From: Gemmatimonadota bacterium
Lineage (GTDB): Bacteria > ARS69
Assembly (NCBI GenBank): GCA_030747075.1
Contig: JASLLL010000042.1
Coordinates: 1 to 16,196 of the forward strand
Direction of reading: 5' to 3'
DNA length: 16,196 nt
Shown: positions 3,090-16,196 of the stretch, piece by piece
How positions within the stretch are numbered: the first letter of the stretch is position 1
How the letters are laid out: each line of letters starts with the position of its first letter
The notes under the pieces: generated by a model
The model's database searches: none
The model's input: the letters and a program-made list of their open reading frames with translations, nothing else
Told to the model about the DNA's origin: nothing
Made by a program: the position numbers and the translations under genes

Positions 3090-4988
3090 GTGATTCCGAG
3101 GGTTCTCATTGCTGCGGTGGCGCTGACCACGCTCCTGCCAGGTTGTGGGCCGCGTTCCGGTGTGGCTCCTGACGGCGTGCTCCTGACGCTGGACACTTGC
3201 AGGGGTGACCGCTGGGGTTGCACGGGCGACATGGCGGCCCGGACGCCGCACCTGGATCGGCTTGCGCGCAGCGGCAGTCTCGCCTTCGAAGGGCGCGCTC
3301 CGGCCCCGATTACGCTTCCCTCGCACGCCACGATGATGACCGGACTTCCGCCTTCGGTTCATGGCGTTCACGACAACGGTGTCTATCGTCTATCTTCGGA
3401 GAGCGGGATCACTCTGGCGGAAGTGCTCCGCGACGCGGGGTATCGAACCGCCGCGTTTGTCTCGGCCTTTCCGCTGGCGTCCCGGTTCGGAATGGACCGT
3501 GGATTCCACCACTACGATGACGCCCTGCAGCGCACTTCAGGCACGGAACCCCGGCACCTGCGGGAACGCCGCGCGGACCGGACGGTAGCCCGGGTGAAGC
3601 GCTGGCTGAGAGAGACCCCGAGCACGGGTGCCGACGCCCCCCTTTTCCTCTGGGCGCACTTCTTTGATCCCCATGCGGACTACGCACCTCCCGCTCCGTG
3701 GACGAACGCCTCCGGTGGAGATGCATACCGTGCGGAGATCGCCTTCGTGGACACCGAGGTTGGAGAGCTTCTCAGAACGCTGGACGAAGCTCGCCCGGGG
3801 CGCACCCGTTGTGTAGTGGTGGCATCGGATCACGGAGAAGGGCTGGGCGACGCCGGGGAATCCACGCACGGCATTCTCCTGCGTCTCTCGACGATACGGG
3901 TTCCCATGCTGGCGGTATCGGACAAAGCACGCCCCGCGCTTCTCGGAGGGGCGCGTTCTCTGGCCCGGGTTCCCGCCACGGTTCTTTCGCTCCTGGGCGT
4001 GGAAGGTGCGCTCTCGGACGGAGCGGCGCCGGTGCTGGAGGCCCCGGTCACATCCGTCCAGGCGGAGACATTCTATGGCTGGTTCAACTTTGGTTTCCAC
4101 GCGCTGCGTTCCCGGGAGAGTGGGCGGTGGCGTCTCGTTTCCGGGAAGGTGGATCGTCTGTACGACCTGTTGTCCGATCCGGGAGAAACGACCGACCTTG
4201 CGCTGGAGTACCCGGAGGTCGCTGCAGATCTCCGATCGGAAATGGAAGACGCATGGAGAGAGCAGCGTTCGCAGTCGGCCAGGGGAGCGGAGCGCGAGAT
4301 GGAGCCGGAGGAGTCGGCGGCCCTTCGTTCGCTGGGGTATGCGGCAGGGGCCTCCCGGCCGACGGGGAGCCTGGAGCGTGGACTCGCTTCCGGCCCGTCG
4401 CCGGAGGGGTTGGTGGAGTTCGTGGATGTGATCAGCCGGGGGATTGCGTTGCTGGAGTCCGGAAATGCCGAAGAGGCGGTCACCTTGCTGGGCGCATCGT
4501 CGCCATCGGGCACGAGGGTCCGCATGCGTCTGGAGTATCTGGGCCGTGCGCTCTTGGAGCTGGATCGGTATGAGGAAGCGGTGGCCGCGCTTCGAGAGGC
4601 GGTGACTCTCGGTCGCAATCCGGAGACCGTCTACTTGGATCTGGCGCGGGCGGAGGGAGCGTTGGGACATCGGGCAGAACTTCACGCTGCCTACGCCCGG
4701 GCGCTTCGCATGCACCCGGGCTCGGTGGCTGCGCGGCAGGGACTGGCGCAGGCGTACCTCGTGGAGGGAGAGGGCGGCAAGGCAGCTGATGTGCTTCTGG
4801 AGGCAGCGCGTATTCGGCCGCGCTCGGCCGTCGTGCATCTGAATCTGGCGCAGGTGCTGGAGATGCTGGGGCGGGCGGAGGAGGCGCAGGTTCACTGGCG
4901 GAAGTGCCTGGAACTGGACCCGGATGGCCCGTCGGGAGAGGCGGCCCGTCGTGTTCAAATGGGCCGAGGAGAGAGTGGCAATGGCTGA
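3090..4988 (+). CDS. Sulfatase-fold (alkaline phosphatase superfamily) lipoprotein with C-terminal TPRs
   Basis: A 632-residue protein. GTG at 3090 is preferred to ATG at 2961: AAGGAG lies nine bases upstream, and the chain then opens with a lipoprotein signal ending in LLPGC (Cys19). Residues about 30-400 have the sulfatase fold: LLTLDTCRGDR (Asp35 as a metal ligand), TPHLDRLA, the nucleophile motif TLPSHATMMTG (about 75-85), FFDPH (Asp193, His195), SDHGEGLGD (Asp247, His248) and THG (His260). The nucleophile position is Thr75, not the Cys or Ser of the CxPxR motif that matures to formylglycine. True sulfatase activity is therefore unlikely, and a phosphatase, phosphodiesterase or phosphotransferase reaction is more probable. 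Residues about 455-620 form three to four TPRs (for example YEEAVAALREAV). The protein is probably membrane-anchored and periplasmic, with the TPRs binding a partner. It overlaps cutA by eight bases. The substrate is unknown. Confidence 0.85.
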   Translation: MIPRVLIAAVALTTLLPGCGPRSGVAPDGVLLTLDTCRGDRWGCTGDMAARTPHLDRLARSGSLAFEGRAPAPITLPSHATMMTGLPPSVHGVHDNGVYRLSSESGITLAEVLRDAGYRTAAFVSAFPLASRFGMDRGFHHYDDALQRTSGTEPRHLRERRADRTVARVKRWLRETPSTGADAPLFLWAHFFDPHADYAPPAPWTNASGGDAYRAEIAFVDTEVGELLRTLDEARPGRTRCVVVASDHGEGLGDAGESTHGILLRLSTIRVPMLAVSDKARPALLGGARSLARVPATVLSLLGVEGALSDGAAPVLEAPVTSVQAETFYGWFNFGFHALRSRESGRWRLVSGKVDRLYDLLSDPGETTDLALEYPEVAADLRSEMEDAWREQRSQSARGAEREMEPEESAALRSLGYAAGASRPTGSLERGLASGPSPEGLVEFVDVISRGIALLESGNAEEAVTLLGASSPSGTRVRMRLEYLGRALLELDRYEEAVAALREAVTLGRNPETVYLDLARAEGALGHRAELHAAYARALRMHPGSVAARQGLAQAYLVEGEGGKAADVLLEAARIRPRSAVVHLNLAQVLEMLGRAEEAQVHWRKCLELDPDGPSGEAARRVQMGRGESGNG

Positions 4989-5334
4989 GCGGAGTCTGGT
5001 GGAGATCGTGACCACCGTGGAGACCGAAGGAGAGGCGGAAGATCTGGCGCGTGGGATTCTGTCCGAGCAGCTCGGGGCCTGCGTGGGGATCGAGCGGGTT
5101 CGCTCGCTCTTTCGTTGGCGCGGCTGCATCGAGGATGAAGGAGAGTACCGCGTCTCCATCAAGACGGTACCCGGGCTTGCGTCGCGAGTGGAAGCATTCG
5201 TCCTGAAGGAACATCCGTATGAGACCCCCATGGTCCTCCGAATGGCCGTGGACAGTTCCACCAAGGCATACTCCCGATGGGTGGAGGACTCCGTTGCACC
5301 GGTGCCGCCGGACAATCCAAAGGAGAACGCATGA
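4981..5334 (+). CDS. cutA: CutA1 divalent-cation tolerance family protein
   Basis: A 117-residue protein, normal length for CutA. ATG at 4981 is preferred to the in-frame start at 4924 because it gives the family N-terminus (SLVEIVTTVETEGEAEDLA) and has GAGGAGAG just upstream. Family motifs are visible: GACVGIERVRSLFRWRG, then EYRVSIKT, HPYETPMVLRM and a C-terminal YSRWVEDSV. CutA forms a compact cytoplasmic trimer with a ferredoxin-like fold related to PII signalling proteins. It was linked to copper and other divalent-cation tolerance in E. coli, though its biochemical role remains unsettled. Its start overlaps the hydrolase stop by eight bases and its stop overlaps the moeA start as ATGA, so the three genes are almost certainly co-transcribed and translationally coupled. 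Confidence 0.93.
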   Translation: MAERSLVEIVTTVETEGEAEDLARGILSEQLGACVGIERVRSLFRWRGCIEDEGEYRVSIKTVPGLASRVEAFVLKEHPYETPMVLRMAVDSSTKAYSRWVEDSVAPVPPDNPKENA

Positions 5335-6602
5335 CCCCGTCGTTTCGTCGCGACGCACTGCCTCTGACCCCGTTCGACGAAGCGGTGGCCCTTGTTCGTG
5401 CGGAAGCCACTCCGCTGGAAGTGGAGATCGTGGAGGTGTCGGTCGCAGTCGGGCGCATTCTTGCGGAGCCTGTCACGGCGCCCCATTCGGTGCCTCACTT
5501 TGAGAACTCCATGATGGATGGTTTTGCGGTGATCGCTGCCGATGTCGTGGGAGCGTCTGCGGATCGGCCCGTGGCGTTGAACATTGTCGGGGAGGTTCCT
5601 GCGGGGGCAACCCCGGACTTCGCGGTGAAGAGCGGGACGGCTGCCCGGATCATGACCGGGGCCCCGGTGCCGGAGGGGGCCGACACGGTGATTCCCGTGG
5701 AGTGGACGGACCCGGACGGGGAGGCGGTCCGGATTCGCAGGGACGCCGCTGCGGGGAACTCGATCCGCCGTGTGGGCGAAGACATGAACGCGGGCGCAGA
5801 GGTCTTCCGCACAGGCAAGCGTCTTCGTCCCCAGGAGTTGGGCGTGCTGGCATCGCTGGGCATTGCGACGGTGTCCGTGTACCGGCGGCCCACGGTTTCG
5901 GTCTTGTCCACGGGGGACGAGCTTCTCGCGCCGGGGGAGGCTCTGGCTCCGGGGAAGATCCATGGATCCAACGGATTGACGATCGCCGGGCAGGCCGCGG
6001 AGGCGGGAGGACTGGTGCGAGACTTCGGGATTGCCCGTGACGAACCGGCGGACCTTGCCCGGAAGCTGGAAGCCGCCGCAGAGGCGGATGTGGTCCTGAC
6101 ATCGGGAGGCGTCTCCGTGGGGGAGCGTGATCACCTGCAGGATGTTCTGGAGGCGAGGGGATTCCGCCGGATCTTCTGGCGCGTGGAGGCCAGTCCGGGG
6201 AAGCCGCTGCTCTTCGGGAAACTGGGGGAAGCGTTCGTCTTCGGACTTCCCGGGAATCCCGTCTCCTCCATGGTGGCTTTCGAGAACTTCGCCCGCCCTT
6301 TTCTGCGCCTCCTTCAGGGAGACGATCAGCCGGACCGGCCGCGCCTGCGGTGTCTCGCAAAGGGGCGGATCCACGGCCCCGCTCCCCGGCGGCATTTCGC
6401 CCGCGTCCGCGTGGAGTCCACCCCGGATGGTGTCTTCGCCCGGGAAGTCGGTCCGCACGGATCCGGGAACTTGCGCTCCATGGCCGAGGCGAACGGGCTG
6501 GCTATTCTTCGCGAAGGCGTGTCCGAGGTCCAGCCGGGGGAGCCGGTAGAGGTCCTGCTTCTCTCGGAGCCGGATTGGGCGGGAACGTTCGCCGGTCGTT
6601 GA
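5331..6602 (+). CDS. moeA: Molybdopterin molybdotransferase MoeA
   Basis: A 423-residue cytoplasmic enzyme that inserts molybdate into adenylylated molybdopterin, the last general step of molybdenum cofactor synthesis. ATG at 5331 overlaps the cutA stop (ATGA) and follows AAAGGAGAA. MoeA landmarks appear in order: FENSMMDGFAV (Asp63), TGAPVPEGADTVIPVE, the MoCF-binding domain with VLSTGDEL (Asp196) and TSGGVSVGERDH (from Thr257), GLPGNPVSSMVAF (Pro307, Pro310), and a C-terminal domain with RHFARV and GSGNLRSMAEANGL. Length and motif order are those of a full, intact enzyme. No other cofactor-synthesis gene lies in the window, so the neighbourhood of cutA and a lipoprotein hydrolase does not reveal which molybdoenzyme it serves. 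An internal, longer start at 5277 is rejected because it lacks a Shine-Dalgarno. Confidence 0.95.
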   Translation: MTPSFRRDALPLTPFDEAVALVRAEATPLEVEIVEVSVAVGRILAEPVTAPHSVPHFENSMMDGFAVIAADVVGASADRPVALNIVGEVPAGATPDFAVKSGTAARIMTGAPVPEGADTVIPVEWTDPDGEAVRIRRDAAAGNSIRRVGEDMNAGAEVFRTGKRLRPQELGVLASLGIATVSVYRRPTVSVLSTGDELLAPGEALAPGKIHGSNGLTIAGQAAEAGGLVRDFGIARDEPADLARKLEAAAEADVVLTSGGVSVGERDHLQDVLEARGFRRIFWRVEASPGKPLLFGKLGEAFVFGLPGNPVSSMVAFENFARPFLRLLQGDDQPDRPRLRCLAKGRIHGPAPRRHFARVRVESTPDGVFAREVGPHGSGNLRSMAEANGLAILREGVSEVQPGEPVEVLLLSEPDWAGTFAGR

Positions 6603-6661
6603 CAGGCCGGGCGCAGAGAAGGCGGAGCCACCCTGCTCGTGCTTCACGGGCCTCGCGAACC

Positions 6662-6698
6662 CTCTCTCGCTGGGGCCGGGCGAACCCGGAGTGGAGAG
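6662..6698. other. Long hairpin in the convergent moeA/NicO intergenic region
   Basis: The 296 bases between the moeA stop and the end of the transporter gene hold no convincing gene. Within them, CTCTC (6662-6666) and CGCT (6668-6671) pair with AGTG and GAGAG (6690-6698) around a one-base bulge. Inside, CCGGG (6676-6680) and CCCGG (6685-6689) close a CGAA tetraloop. A four-base GGGG bulge separates the two stems. No T-run follows on either strand, so it is not a textbook intrinsic terminator. A bidirectional end-of-transcript structure is the likeliest role. A second, imperfect inverted repeat lies at 6788-6816. Confidence 0.35.
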
Positions 6699-6898
6699 TG
6701 TGAACGGATCACGGAGCGGGCAGCGTCCGCCGACACCAATCATAGCACACAGTTGTGGTGCAGCACGGTCCGCTCAGGCTGCCTGCCCCATTGAATGCGC
6801 GATTTCCGTTCATTGGAAACTTCGGGGAGTCGCGGCCAATCCGCGCCGGGGTTTGCCGATCTTCGGGGATTGCCGGAGATTCTGTGCAGGTGCGACGA

Positions 6899-12401: not shown

Positions 12402-12427
12402 TACTCCGAATGGGGAAAGGGGGTTCC

Positions 12428-12961
12428 ATGTCCAAGTCCAACTGGCGCCTGTCTCGATGCAGCCCGGCGCAGCTACGGCAGAGCATGATGAGGGTTGCGC
12501 GCAGGCGGCGCGGCTTCACGGCGACCGAGCTCATGGTGACGATGGGAGTTCTGGGGATTGTGGGCGCGTTGTCGTGGGGCGGCATGAGCGGACTCATGGA
12601 GTCGAGGAAGCTCTCCGGAAGCGCAAACCGACTCGTTGCACACCTTCGCCTGGCTCGCGAGAAGGCGGTGTCGGAAGGGAACAACTTCATTGTCACATTT
12701 CGACCGAATCTCGATGACTACCAAGTCTGGGATGATGAAGGGAATGACTCGGTCTTCGGGCCGAAGGACAGCAGGCAGGAGTTTTCGCTGGATTCAGGAG
12801 TTCTGCTTCAAAACGCGGTCTTCTTCTCAGGCAATCGCGTGGTTTTCCGCCCGGACGGGACGAGCAGCGCGTCGGGTTCCGTCTGGCTGGAGGGGAAGGA
12901 TGCCGTCAAGAGAATCGATGTGCTGGCCTCGACCGGACGGATTGTCGTGGGGGAGGGATGA
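12428..12961 (+). CDS. FimT/GspH-like type IV pseudopilin
   Basis: A 177-residue minor pilin. A class III prepilin leader ends at Gly29, and the mature chain starts FTATELMVTMGVLGIVGAL, with the conserved Glu at +5 and a hydrophobic helix that serves as membrane anchor and pilus core. The chain then reads GLMESRKLSGSANRLVAHLRLAREKAV, typical of FimT/GspH, followed by a beta-rich domain with VVFRPDGTSSASGSVWL. That last pattern is the usual C-terminal signature of this subfamily. ATG at 12428 has GGAAAGGGGG upstream; ATG at 12485 would give a more usual ten-residue leader but shows no Shine-Dalgarno, so the start is uncertain. The stop overlaps the next gene as ATGA. A prepilin peptidase (PilD) must be encoded elsewhere. 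Confidence 0.85.
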   Translation: MSKSNWRLSRCSPAQLRQSMMRVARRRRGFTATELMVTMGVLGIVGALSWGGMSGLMESRKLSGSANRLVAHLRLAREKAVSEGNNFIVTFRPNLDDYQVWDDEGNDSVFGPKDSRQEFSLDSGVLLQNAVFFSGNRVVFRPDGTSSASGSVWLEGKDAVKRIDVLASTGRIVVGEG

Positions 12962-13353
12962 AACGCGTGTCGCATCGGCAGCGTGCAAACGGTGAGCGGG
13001 GGTTCTCGCTGGTTGAGTTGATGATCGCGATGGTCGTCCTGGGGATTGGCCTGCTCTCACTGGCCGGTCTCTTTCCGCTGGCGATGGAGCGTGTGGCCGC
13101 CGGGGATCTGGACTCGCGGGCGACCTTTCATGCCGAGGCCAAGCTGGAGGAACTGAAGAATGTACCGTGGCTGCAGTTGTCCGGGCAATCCGGGACCGAC
13201 TCCCCGGACGGCAGATACCAGAGGGCGTGGAGTGTGGATGATGATGTTCCGGCGGTAGGAATGAAGCGGCTTGGAGTCGTGGTTTCATGGTCCGACAATC
13301 ACTCCCCGCGCCAGGTGACGCTGGCCACCTTCGTTTCCGATTCCGGCGTTTGA
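12958..13353 (+). CDS. PilV-like minor prepilin
   Basis: A 131-residue minor pilin. The leader ends ERG (Gly15), and the mature chain opens FSLVELMIAMVVLGIGLLSLAGLFP with Glu at +5. This is the N-terminus of the PilV/GspI class, whose hallmark is the -IGLLSLAGL- continuation. The remaining globular part is short: AKLEELKNVPW, a loop, then VVVSWSDNHSPRQVTLATFVS, as in PilV proteins. In known systems PilV-class subunits sit in the tip or priming complex of the pilus. The ATG overlaps the upstream stop (ATGA). The purine-rich GGGAGGG lies directly against it, so GTG at 12967 is an alternative start. The next pilin gene starts 12 bases after the stop. Confidence 0.87.
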   Translation: MKRVSHRQRANGERGFSLVELMIAMVVLGIGLLSLAGLFPLAMERVAAGDLDSRATFHAEAKLEELKNVPWLQLSGQSGTDSPDGRYQRAWSVDDDVPAVGMKRLGVVVSWSDNHSPRQVTLATFVSDSGV

Positions 13354-13364
13354 GGAGCCGCGTC

Positions 13365-16196
13365 GTGTCTCTCCGGAATTCGCGTGGCTTCACTTTGACG
13401 GAGATGGTGATCGCGCTTCTCGTGGTGGGCTTGCTGGTTGCCGGGGTGTATCGCGTCTTCATCTCGGCCGAGGAGTCCTACGAGCGCGGCACGGAGAGCG
13501 TGGACGCGCAGCAGAATGCACGGGCGGTGCTGGCGTGGATGGGGCAGGAACTCCGATCGGCAAAGGGATTCTCGGTCATCGATTCCTCCGAAGTGACGCT
13601 GGTGACCGATGCTCGAGTTCGCGATCAGATTCGCACCTTCCGGCTCGACACAGCCGATCAGGACGGCGACGGGATCACTTCGGAACTGCTCCTGATCCGA
13701 AACCCGGCCGATGACGGATCGCCCGGGCCCGTGACAGACGAGATTGCGCTGGGAGTGGAAGTTCTGGCCTTTGTGTATCGGGACGGGGTCGGGGCGGTGA
13801 CGGGTTCGCGCGCGGCAGTTCATGAAGTGGAGGTGTTCGTGACGACGATCGGGTCCGGCAGCATGGCGAATGTCGACCGCGCGGGGGGGGCGGGTGTTCG
13901 GGAGGTCACGATGTCTACCCGCGTGCGATGCCGCAACCTCGGCAAGAGCGTCCCGACGCTCGGGGACGCGACTCCCCCCGACCCGCCACAGGGTCTGGTG
14001 GCGATCATGGCGTGCGGTACGGCCACCGTCGCATGGAGCGCGAATGCGGAAGCGGACCTGGCCGGATACTACCTGTCCTACTCCAACGCAGGAGGCGGGT
14101 CTCCCTATACCGGAACGGACTCCGACCAGGGGCCGTCGCCGATATTTGTCGGGAATGTGCTGAACTACACGCTGACCGGACTCGACCAGAGCGATATCTA
14201 CCACTTCAACCTGGAGGCGGTCGACGCAGCGGACAATGTGAGTTCATTTGCGCAGGAGGTGTCGGGCCAGCCGCAGGACGCACAACCTCCATCCGACCCG
14301 ATGAATCTGGCCGGGCGCGTAATCGGGAACGACAGCATCGAACTGGAGTGGGACTCGTCCCCGGAGTGGGACATCGGCGGCTATGAGATCCACTGGTTCG
14401 ACACGCAGGACTCGTCCAATGTCACCGTAGATACATCCAGCGGTCCGGAGTGGGTGCTGGTCGGGCTCACGAACGGCTCCGTGTACTCCGTCCGGGTTCT
14501 GGCTCTGGATGCTTGCGGCAACGCGAGTGATCTGACCAATCCCATCACGGTCACCATGGTTCCGTGCGACGAAGACATCACCTTCCCGGCGATTCCGACG
14601 AACTTCGCGGCCTTCGCCGGAGACGAGGTGGTGCATCTGTCGTGGGATTCCGTCCCCGATCCGGATGTTGTGGGCTACGAGGTCTTCTTCCGTGAATCGG
14701 GAGGAGGCGGCGGGACGACGCTGCTCGTGGGGAATGTCACATCATACAGCGTATACGGGCTCTACAACCAGACGACCTATGAGTTTCAGGTGGCCGCCCT
14801 CGACGGCTGTGAACACACCGGAGGCTTCACGGGGATGGTGAGCGCCACTCCTGTGCAGTGCGCGGGGAATACGGACCCTCCCGCTGTTCCATCGAACCTG
14901 ACGGCACAGGATGCCGGGTTGGGTGATCAGGTGTCGCTCTCCTGGACGCTTTCACAGAACGAGGGAGACATATTGGGGTATCGCGTCTGGTGGGGGACGG
15001 TCCCCGGGACCTGGAGTGCGTCGGAAGATGTGGGCGATACCGTGTTCCATGAAGTGACGGGTCTTTCCACCGGCGTGACCTACTACTTCACGGTGACCGC
15101 GTACGATGTGTGCGGGAACGAGAGTGCGTATGCGCAGTCGGTGACGGAAATTCCGACCTGGGGCTGTGCCTGTCCACCGGTGGCGGTGTGCTCGGCGCCC
15201 GCTGACTACGCGGTTCTGCAGGGGACCGTTCCGTGGACCGTATCCACTACCGCGTGTTCCACGAGTACCGTCAGCTATGTGGAGTTCTGGATCGACGGCC
15301 AGATTCGCTATGTGGACTACACGGCTCCCTGGGAGTACGGCGACTTTGGAATCGGATGGTACACCGTGACGGAGTCAGACGGACCGCATCAGCTGGTGGC
15401 GGTTGCCGCGGACCCGATGGGTTGTGAGGACTCCGACACGCTGGATGTCTATGTGGACAACTCGGGAATCGGGCCATCCTGCGTCGGTGTCGAGAATGGA
15501 GGCCCGGCCACCCTCGGAGGCGCCTGGGGGGAGAGCCTCTCCTTCCCGCTCACGAATCTGTCGGCGGTAGATACCTACTATCTGGACGGAATGAGTCTCA
15601 CCTGGAGTGACCCGACTCTTGGGATTCTCGCCGTCTTTGTGGATGGAGGCCTGGCCTATTCGGGGCCGAGTCCGGGACCGGCCTCGGGTGATACGGTTTC
15701 CATTTCGCCTTCCATCATGGTGCCCCCCCAGTCCAGCGTGACGGTGGATGTGACGCTCTGGGACAATCCTCCGTCGTTTCCTCCCGCCTTTGATCTCACC
15801 GGCGAGAACTGGACGGGGACATTCTTCGGAAGCCCCTCTGGAGTCTGCGGGCCGTATCCCATTCAGACGGATGTTGCCTGCTCTGTTGGGGTAGGGATTG
15901 TGAGCGTCACGAGCGCACGGGTCTACGATGTCTGGGGAGTTCCACAGATCGGAGACGAGTACTACACGGATCGTTCCTACACGCTGACCTATCTCCCGGT
16001 GGATCTGGACGATGCAATCCTGGTGCGCCAGCCCAATGACGACAAGAGCAGCGGGAACTCGCACGAACTCGTTCTCTCGGTCGACCACGATGTCACGGTC
16101 TGGATTGGATACGACCCGCGCGGGACACCGCCCGACTGGATCGAACAGAACTACACCGACACGGGACTCACGATCGGCGTGACGGACAGTGGAACT
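13365..16196 (+). CDS. PilW-like prepilin fused to four FN3 domains and further beta-domains (continues past window)
   Basis: The frame from GTG at 13365 (GAGGAG seven bases upstream) stays open for 944 codons to the window edge. A short leader MSLRNSRG precedes FTLTEMVIALLVVGLLVAGVY, a prepilin helix with Glu at +5; residues to about 200 form a PilW-like region. Then come four FN3 domains (about 204-304, 307-400, 406-500, 504-595), each with a hydrophobic-Trp strand (ELEWDSS, HLSWDSV, SLSWTLS) and a final Y/F-x-V-x-A strand. An Ig-like domain follows at about 606-698 (VEFWIDGQ, DGPHQLVAVAAD), then a beta-rich segment at 705-835. A last domain from about 844 contains YYTDRSYTLTYLP, RQPNDDKSSG and VTVWIGYDPRG. 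It is third in the pilin operon. The likely role is a long tip-located minor pilin that acts as adhesin or ligand-binding arm; this is inferred from architecture. An eight-G run lies at 13883-13890. Confidence 0.88.
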   Translation, partial: MSLRNSRGFTLTEMVIALLVVGLLVAGVYRVFISAEESYERGTESVDAQQNARAVLAWMGQELRSAKGFSVIDSSEVTLVTDARVRDQIRTFRLDTADQDGDGITSELLLIRNPADDGSPGPVTDEIALGVEVLAFVYRDGVGAVTGSRAAVHEVEVFVTTIGSGSMANVDRAGGAGVREVTMSTRVRCRNLGKSVPTLGDATPPDPPQGLVAIMACGTATVAWSANAEADLAGYYLSYSNAGGGSPYTGTDSDQGPSPIFVGNVLNYTLTGLDQSDIYHFNLEAVDAADNVSSFAQEVSGQPQDAQPPSDPMNLAGRVIGNDSIELEWDSSPEWDIGGYEIHWFDTQDSSNVTVDTSSGPEWVLVGLTNGSVYSVRVLALDACGNASDLTNPITVTMVPCDEDITFPAIPTNFAAFAGDEVVHLSWDSVPDPDVVGYEVFFRESGGGGGTTLLVGNVTSYSVYGLYNQTTYEFQVAALDGCEHTGGFTGMVSATPVQCAGNTDPPAVPSNLTAQDAGLGDQVSLSWTLSQNEGDILGYRVWWGTVPGTWSASEDVGDTVFHEVTGLSTGVTYYFTVTAYDVCGNESAYAQSVTEIPTWGCACPPVAVCSAPADYAVLQGTVPWTVSTTACSTSTVSYVEFWIDGQIRYVDYTAPWEYGDFGIGWYTVTESDGPHQLVAVAADPMGCEDSDTLDVYVDNSGIGPSCVGVENGGPATLGGAWGESLSFPLTNLSAVDTYYLDGMSLTWSDPTLGILAVFVDGGLAYSGPSPGPASGDTVSISPSIMVPPQSSVTVDVTLWDNPPSFPPAFDLTGENWTGTFFGSPSGVCGPYPIQTDVACSVGVGIVSVTSARVYDVWGVPQIGDEYYTDRSYTLTYLPVDLDDAILVRQPNDDKSSGNSHELVLSVDHDVTVWIGYDPRGTPPDWIEQNYTDTGLTIGVTDSGT
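13974..15153 (+). repeat. Four tandem FN3-domain coding units
   Basis: The units start near 13974, 14283, 14580 and 14874. Most open with a proline-rich linker such as PPDPPQGL, PPSDPMNL or PPAVPSNL. They are divergent at DNA level, with no obvious long identical stretches, so they look like old duplications and not a recently expanding array. Units two to four share a D-x-C motif in the F-G region and a second cysteine 17-18 residues later; unit one has DAADN instead. Confidence 0.7.

Follow-up and report, generated by a model that had tools for sequence, protein, structure and literature searches.

Type IV pilins that carry additional domains form a published class. In these modular pilins, non-pilin domains are grafted C-terminally onto an N-terminal pilin motif (IPR012902), and the survey of Raynaud et al. 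2021 showed that they are widespread, with >1,200 proteins in 264 architectures, a largest cited member of 860 amino acids and IPR003961 among the 15 commonest architectures (PMC8179133). In Streptococcus sanguinis, PilC combines a pilin with an Ig-like and a lectin part, PilB combines a pilin with a vWA part, and binding has been measured (PMC9934059, PMC8179133). A different arrangement is found in Pseudomonas aeruginosa and Myxococcus xanthus, where the usual PilW/PilJ minor pilin has no FN3/Ig arm and partners PilY1. PilY1/PilC is a large modular tip adhesin that is proposed to display binding modules at the end of the pilus; it is not a pilin and contains a PF05567 beta-propeller. How the tip of type IVa pili (T4aP) is capped in diderms without PilY1 is, to our knowledge, not well known.

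Here, we describe a gene at the end of a 16,196-nucleotide stretch of DNA (the window) from a Gemmatimonadota bacterium. The encoded protein belongs to the known modular pilins, among which it is long and well conserved; four fibronectin-like and further extracellular-type modules make it four to five times as long as a usual pilus subunit. The initial annotation implied that the fusion of a pilin with such modules was new; this does not hold, because the class, FN3 included, had already been published (PMC8179133). The possible novelty lies in the setting, namely the PilW slot of the H-I-J-K tip complex in genomes without detected PilY1.

The gene and its full length

The reading frame starts with GTG at 13365 and contains no stop in the 944 codons up to the end of the window, while the other five frames of the same stretch contain 4 to 32 stops. 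The gene was described as still open at the window edge, which is correct. As the window is the entire contig G000:C42, the gene is truncated by the assembly and not by the choice of window. Downstream extension recovered the remainder on contig G000:C22, which was reached with a PilX query taken from a relative. Bases 3-122 of this contig comprise 39 codons followed by a stop (TLDLWKAEFGAGEV...FVQCR*) and encode TLDLWKAEFGAGEVTLQGNKASGWGGGVATNYVPFVQCR, after which a PilX-like gene begins. Measured against the related genome G001, the gap between the two contigs is one nucleotide, and the full protein therefore has about 984 residues.

13365..16196, + strand: modular PilW-position minor prepilin, 944 of ~984 residues; the remaining 39 codons and the stop are on G000:C22

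Elsewhere in the window, the minus strand contains a 1,068-codon open frame (3537-6743) antisense to sulfatase-like, CutA-like and MoeA-like genes; as the DNA is high in GC, this is most likely a shadow frame.

Domain organization

Pfam searches matched N_methyl at residues 4-29 (5e-7, over the cut-off), fn3 in four stretches (5.8e-34) and Big_7 at residues 605-676 (2.9e-5). A class III prepilin N-terminus, four FN3 domains and an Ig-like domain are thus present in one uninterrupted frame, as initially proposed. IPR003961 corresponds to FN3. The modules are arranged as follows.

13365..13388, + strand: class III leader peptide VSLRNSRG with cleavage predicted ahead of F9 and a Glu at +5, RGFTLTEM (N_methyl 5e-7, TIGR02532 6.8e-6)
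13389..13967, + strand: pilin module with long N-terminal helix and globular part, ending in the conserved MSTRVRCRNLGKSVPTLGD (alignment, low-confidence model, hhalign)
13983..14231, + strand: FN3 domain 1 (PF00041 5.9e-5, 24.5 bits, just below the cut-off of 25)
14295..14552, + strand: FN3 domain 2 (PF00041 4.7e-9)
14595..14807, + strand: FN3 domain 3 (PF00041 7.1e-8)
14889..15131, + strand: FN3 domain 4 (PF00041 7.3e-10)
15177..15392, + strand: bacterial Ig-like domain Big_7, residues 605-676 (PF17957 2.9e-5, 25.1 bits against a curated cut-off of 24.1)
15423..15869, + strand: unnamed segment X, ~residues 687-835, conserved in G001, G002 and G275 by alignment, boundaries approximate
15882..16196, + strand: start of the unnamed C-terminal domain (YYTDRSYTLTYLP...YDPRGTPPDWI...), ~residues 840-984, completed on C22

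No Pfam or NCBIfam family matched ~residues 687-835 and 840-984. At least two further segments beyond the Ig-like domain had been noted initially, and two are present and conserved; their proposed beta-rich character was not confirmed, as the AlphaFold2 model of the C-terminal part (2 sequences) has a mean pLDDT of 39. The model of the pilin module (3-sequence alignment, pLDDT 42) shows a low-confidence helix at 11-64 followed by strands. With both models unusable, neither the pilin fold nor a ligand site is visible. In sequence searches of the PDB, the FN3 array matched only FN3 chains, and the pilin module had no reliable match. Relatives of the C-terminal domain, for which there is no Pfam model, occur in other long open frames of the distant genome G049 (C240, C79 and C136).

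Cysteines are strongly conserved, with 14 of the 16 in the window protein invariant across all four proteins compared. Three cysteine pairs with a spacing of 17-18 residues fall at the ends of FN3 domains 2 to 4, where they may form disulfides that lock the array.

Gene neighbourhood and pilus machinery

The modular gene is preceded by two minor prepilin genes.

12425..12961, + strand: FimT/GspH-class minor prepilin (H position; Pfam GspH 5.3e-10, N_methyl 9.1e-6); start set by judgement at MSKSN, in an open frame that extends back to 12266
12958..13353, + strand: PilV/GspI-class minor prepilin (I position; N_methyl 1.9e-8; NCBIfam PilV 1.1e-6 and XpsI 1e-7, both below their cut-offs)

On C22, the PilX-like gene comes next and after it two genes resembling PilS/PilR, one for a PAS histidine kinase and one for an NtrC-type regulator. 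The FimT-PilV-PilW-PilX order recurs in G001 and partly in G275. The PilX-like protein (L051 136-1926, G000:C22) has ~600 amino acids, carries ERGSVLVLAVLMI and lacks Glu5; it is large for its class and without a Pfam match. A second PilX-like gene with 57-60% identity to the first occurs in three related genomes (G001:C383, G002:C266 and G003:C29; L075, L076 and L077), and a pilin-motif regular expression found no minor pilins beside these copies, which were therefore left out of the comparison.

Contig C6 of the source genome encodes PilB- and PilT-type ATPases, PilM, PilN, PilO, a secretin and two major-pilin-like proteins. Judged by gene content, including a PilT family member and separate PilM, PilN and PilO, this set is a type IVa pilus. 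The two major-pilin-like genes are adjacent within the cluster (L074 10813-11873).

Assignment to the PilW position

The protein was initially called PilW-like, which is supported by synteny and profile comparison. Its gene lies between those for PilV and PilX, and it shares with PilW/PilJ of P. aeruginosa and M. xanthus the FimT/FimU-PilV-PilW-PilX order, the class III leader, Glu5 and RA..L....LR.A in the first 70 residues. In hhalign, its first ~68 residues, to which the match is limited, aligned with the PilW-position pilins of G029 and G044 (probability 96.7, E 3e-10). In these two genomes, PilY1 is encoded near the FimT, PilV and PilW genes, and PilW, counted from its cleavage motif, has 182 and 359 residues. 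Among the curated models, Pfam PilW did not match and TIGR01711 gspJ scored 0.039, far below its cut-off. By position and by its first ~68 residues, the protein is a PilW; by curated models it is not. Because those models remain below cut-off and the structure model is too poor, we refer to it as PilW-position rather than PilW.

Orthologs and the reality of the fusion

A co-linear protein of 991 amino acids without stops, 56% identical and with pilin and FN3 parts in one frame, is encoded in G001 (MAG JAGQIB01), which belongs to another genus of the same family; its full length was pieced together from two contigs overlapping by 56 nt. The distant genome G275, from another family, contains a 999-amino-acid frame that aligns end to end (34% identity over 965 columns) and is preceded by FimT and PilV genes. 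A scan of genome contigs for relatives returned only two, both already known (JAGQIB010000631, Gemmatimonadetes bacterium isolate HKST-UBA01, and JALGZR010000250). In G003, the PilX-like gene lies at a contig end and the PilW contig is missing, and in G004 neither was seen.

The initial annotation itself named an error that could undo the finding, a sequencing fault near codon 200 through which two distinct genes, one for a pilin and one for FN3 domains, would read as one. Exactly at this point, the pilin and FN3 parts of G002 are in different frames (L038, G002:C197, ~1500-1530). The break, however, comes from 14 bp (TCTCGGCGACGTGA) that are perfectly duplicated in tandem; the gene could be a pseudogene or misassembled, or the duplication could act as a phase-variable switch that yields either a short or a long pilin. 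Against a false join also stand the co-linear one-frame proteins of G001 and G275, the continuity of conservation and of third-position GC (0.67-0.85 both upstream and downstream of the junction), and the fact that an FN3 part on its own would be without a secretion signal. For the source genome, the intact orthologs rule out an assembly artefact, and this reading is rejected.

PilY1 and long PilW-position pilins in other genomes

The initial annotation also raised the presence or absence of pilY1 in related genomes. With one Pfam model (PF05567) and draft genomes, none of the five genomes of the phylum (G000-G004) yielded a PilY1, and the PF05567 beta-propeller is absent from the window protein. 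The same search was positive in 9 of 60 genomes, G029 and G044 included. A further nine genomes, selected because they contain long PilW-position open frames, were negative, giving, together with G000-G002, 12 genomes with such frames and no PF05567; among the nine, the frame of G313 has only 693 amino acids and the 1,108-amino-acid frame of G102 was taken from search output alone. A T4aP may be missing altogether from many of the genomes that have no PilY1. That PilY1 was undetected in these genomes fits the idea that the arm might assume a PilY1-like task.

The modules of the long pilins differ between lineages. In G240 and G368 (L116 3902-6823 and L118 5443-8295), PilW-position pilins combine FN3 with a terminal 3keto-disac_hyd-like domain of ConA-like fold. 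In the PilW position, G108 has Calx-beta, G138 has SdrD_B, CarboxypepD_reg and FG-GAP modules, and Big_7 is found in a 1,806-amino-acid frame of G108 and a 1,929-amino-acid frame of G374. Variable heads on a conserved carrier are as expected of a ligand-binding device. In overall plan, the pilins of G240 and G368 are similar to S. sanguinis PilC. Those of G108, G111, G138 and G374 (L119, L120, L121, L122 and L123) have ~970-1,900 amino acids, are spread over several families, carry Big_7, Big_13, Calx-beta, SdrD_B or FG-GAP modules, and are mostly encoded beside FimT, PilV and PilX genes.

It is conceivable, if somewhat doubtful, that giant modular PilW proteins (frames of ~950-1,900 amino acids) with lineage-specific terminal heads are a general alternative to PilY1 in diderm T4aP, the minor pilin itself having turned into the tip effector in several lineages without PilY1. 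The case for a general replacement is suggestive only, because the genomes were picked after the long-frame hits had been seen and PF05567 may miss divergent PilY1.

Proposed function and alternatives

The protein is probably a modular type IVa minor pilin of the PilW (J) position whose arm would act as a built-in tip adhesin or ligand-binder. Prepilin peptidase would cleave the leader, and the pilin part would assemble together with FimT, PilV and PilX, forming the priming/tip complex from which the filament starts. Arrays of FN3/Ig domains typically serve as stalks, and the arm would go through the secretin and project past the tip as such a stalk. The C-terminal domain, as the likeliest head, or the whole array would bind a surface, a polymer or a cell, and PilT retraction would pull on the bound contact. 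The job of the arm would be that of PilY1 in well-studied diderms and of the modular pilins PilB and PilC in S. sanguinis. Two points count against this reading, the junction frameshift of G002 and published models in which PilW lies below PilV, PilX and PilY1 and not at the very tip (PMC13190605). Furthermore, M. xanthus PilW-sfGFP is incorporated but jams the machine, and a large C-terminal addition is thus not automatically tolerated (PMC7541494).

The arm could instead be a non-adhesive spacer or plug in the periplasm or the secretin lumen, serving to prime assembly or to halt retraction at the correct point. Minor pilins and PilY1 form a priming complex, and in M. xanthus the plug density has been proposed to be the vWA domain of PilY1 (PMC7541494); moreover, no ligand site is indicated in our data. 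Six or more beta-sandwich domains would nevertheless make an overlong plug, and C-terminal modules that vary by lineage (ConA-like, Calx-beta, SdrD_B/FG-GAP, Big_7) resemble changing ligands more than a fixed mechanical part, which makes this reading unlikely. H-I-J-K minor pilins are common to T4aP and type II secretion, and FimT and PilV of this locus also match XpsH/XpsI and GspH models, so that the protein might be a GspJ-like pseudopilin with an arm that aids cargo recognition. The PilT family, the PilB-type ATPase, PilM, PilN, PilO, the secretin and the two major-pilin-like genes (in a search that did not extend to GspC, GspL and GspM), together with the PilS/PilR-like pair after PilX, argue for a pilus and render a secretion system decidedly improbable.

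Finally, the arm could serve to degrade polymers and not to attach, carrying an enzyme or a head that binds the substrate. FN3/Ig modules are common linkers in polysaccharide-degrading enzymes, including chitinases (the chitinase A1 FN3 was among the PDB matches of the array), and the pilins of G240 and G368 terminate in a 3keto-disac_hyd-like domain. The window protein, however, matched no catalytic family in Pfam or NCBIfam, and no enzyme genes were seen beside the modular pilin gene; this role is therefore very unlikely. A tip-exposed adhesin or ligand-binder accordingly remains the preferred, still putative, function of the arm.

Conclusions

Compared with the modular type IV pilins surveyed so far (PMC8179133), the present protein differs in its 984 amino acids and six or seven extra modules, and in its place as the PilW member of an H-I-J-K set, within a T4aP that is apparently diderm and in which PilY1 was undetected. 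With PilC and PilB of S. sanguinis it shares the plan of a minor pilin, an Ig-like domain and a terminal, here putative, binding module in pili without PilY1, but those belong to a monoderm, carry one or two extra modules and have measured binding, whereas the present protein ends in an unnamed domain.

Giant PilW-position pilins, whose conservation spans the full length even at 34% identity and whose terminal modules are swapped in other lineages, provide a concrete candidate for the tip cap. The modular-pilin idea, best worked out in a monoderm, would thereby reach the H-I-J-K tip complex in machines that are apparently diderm.
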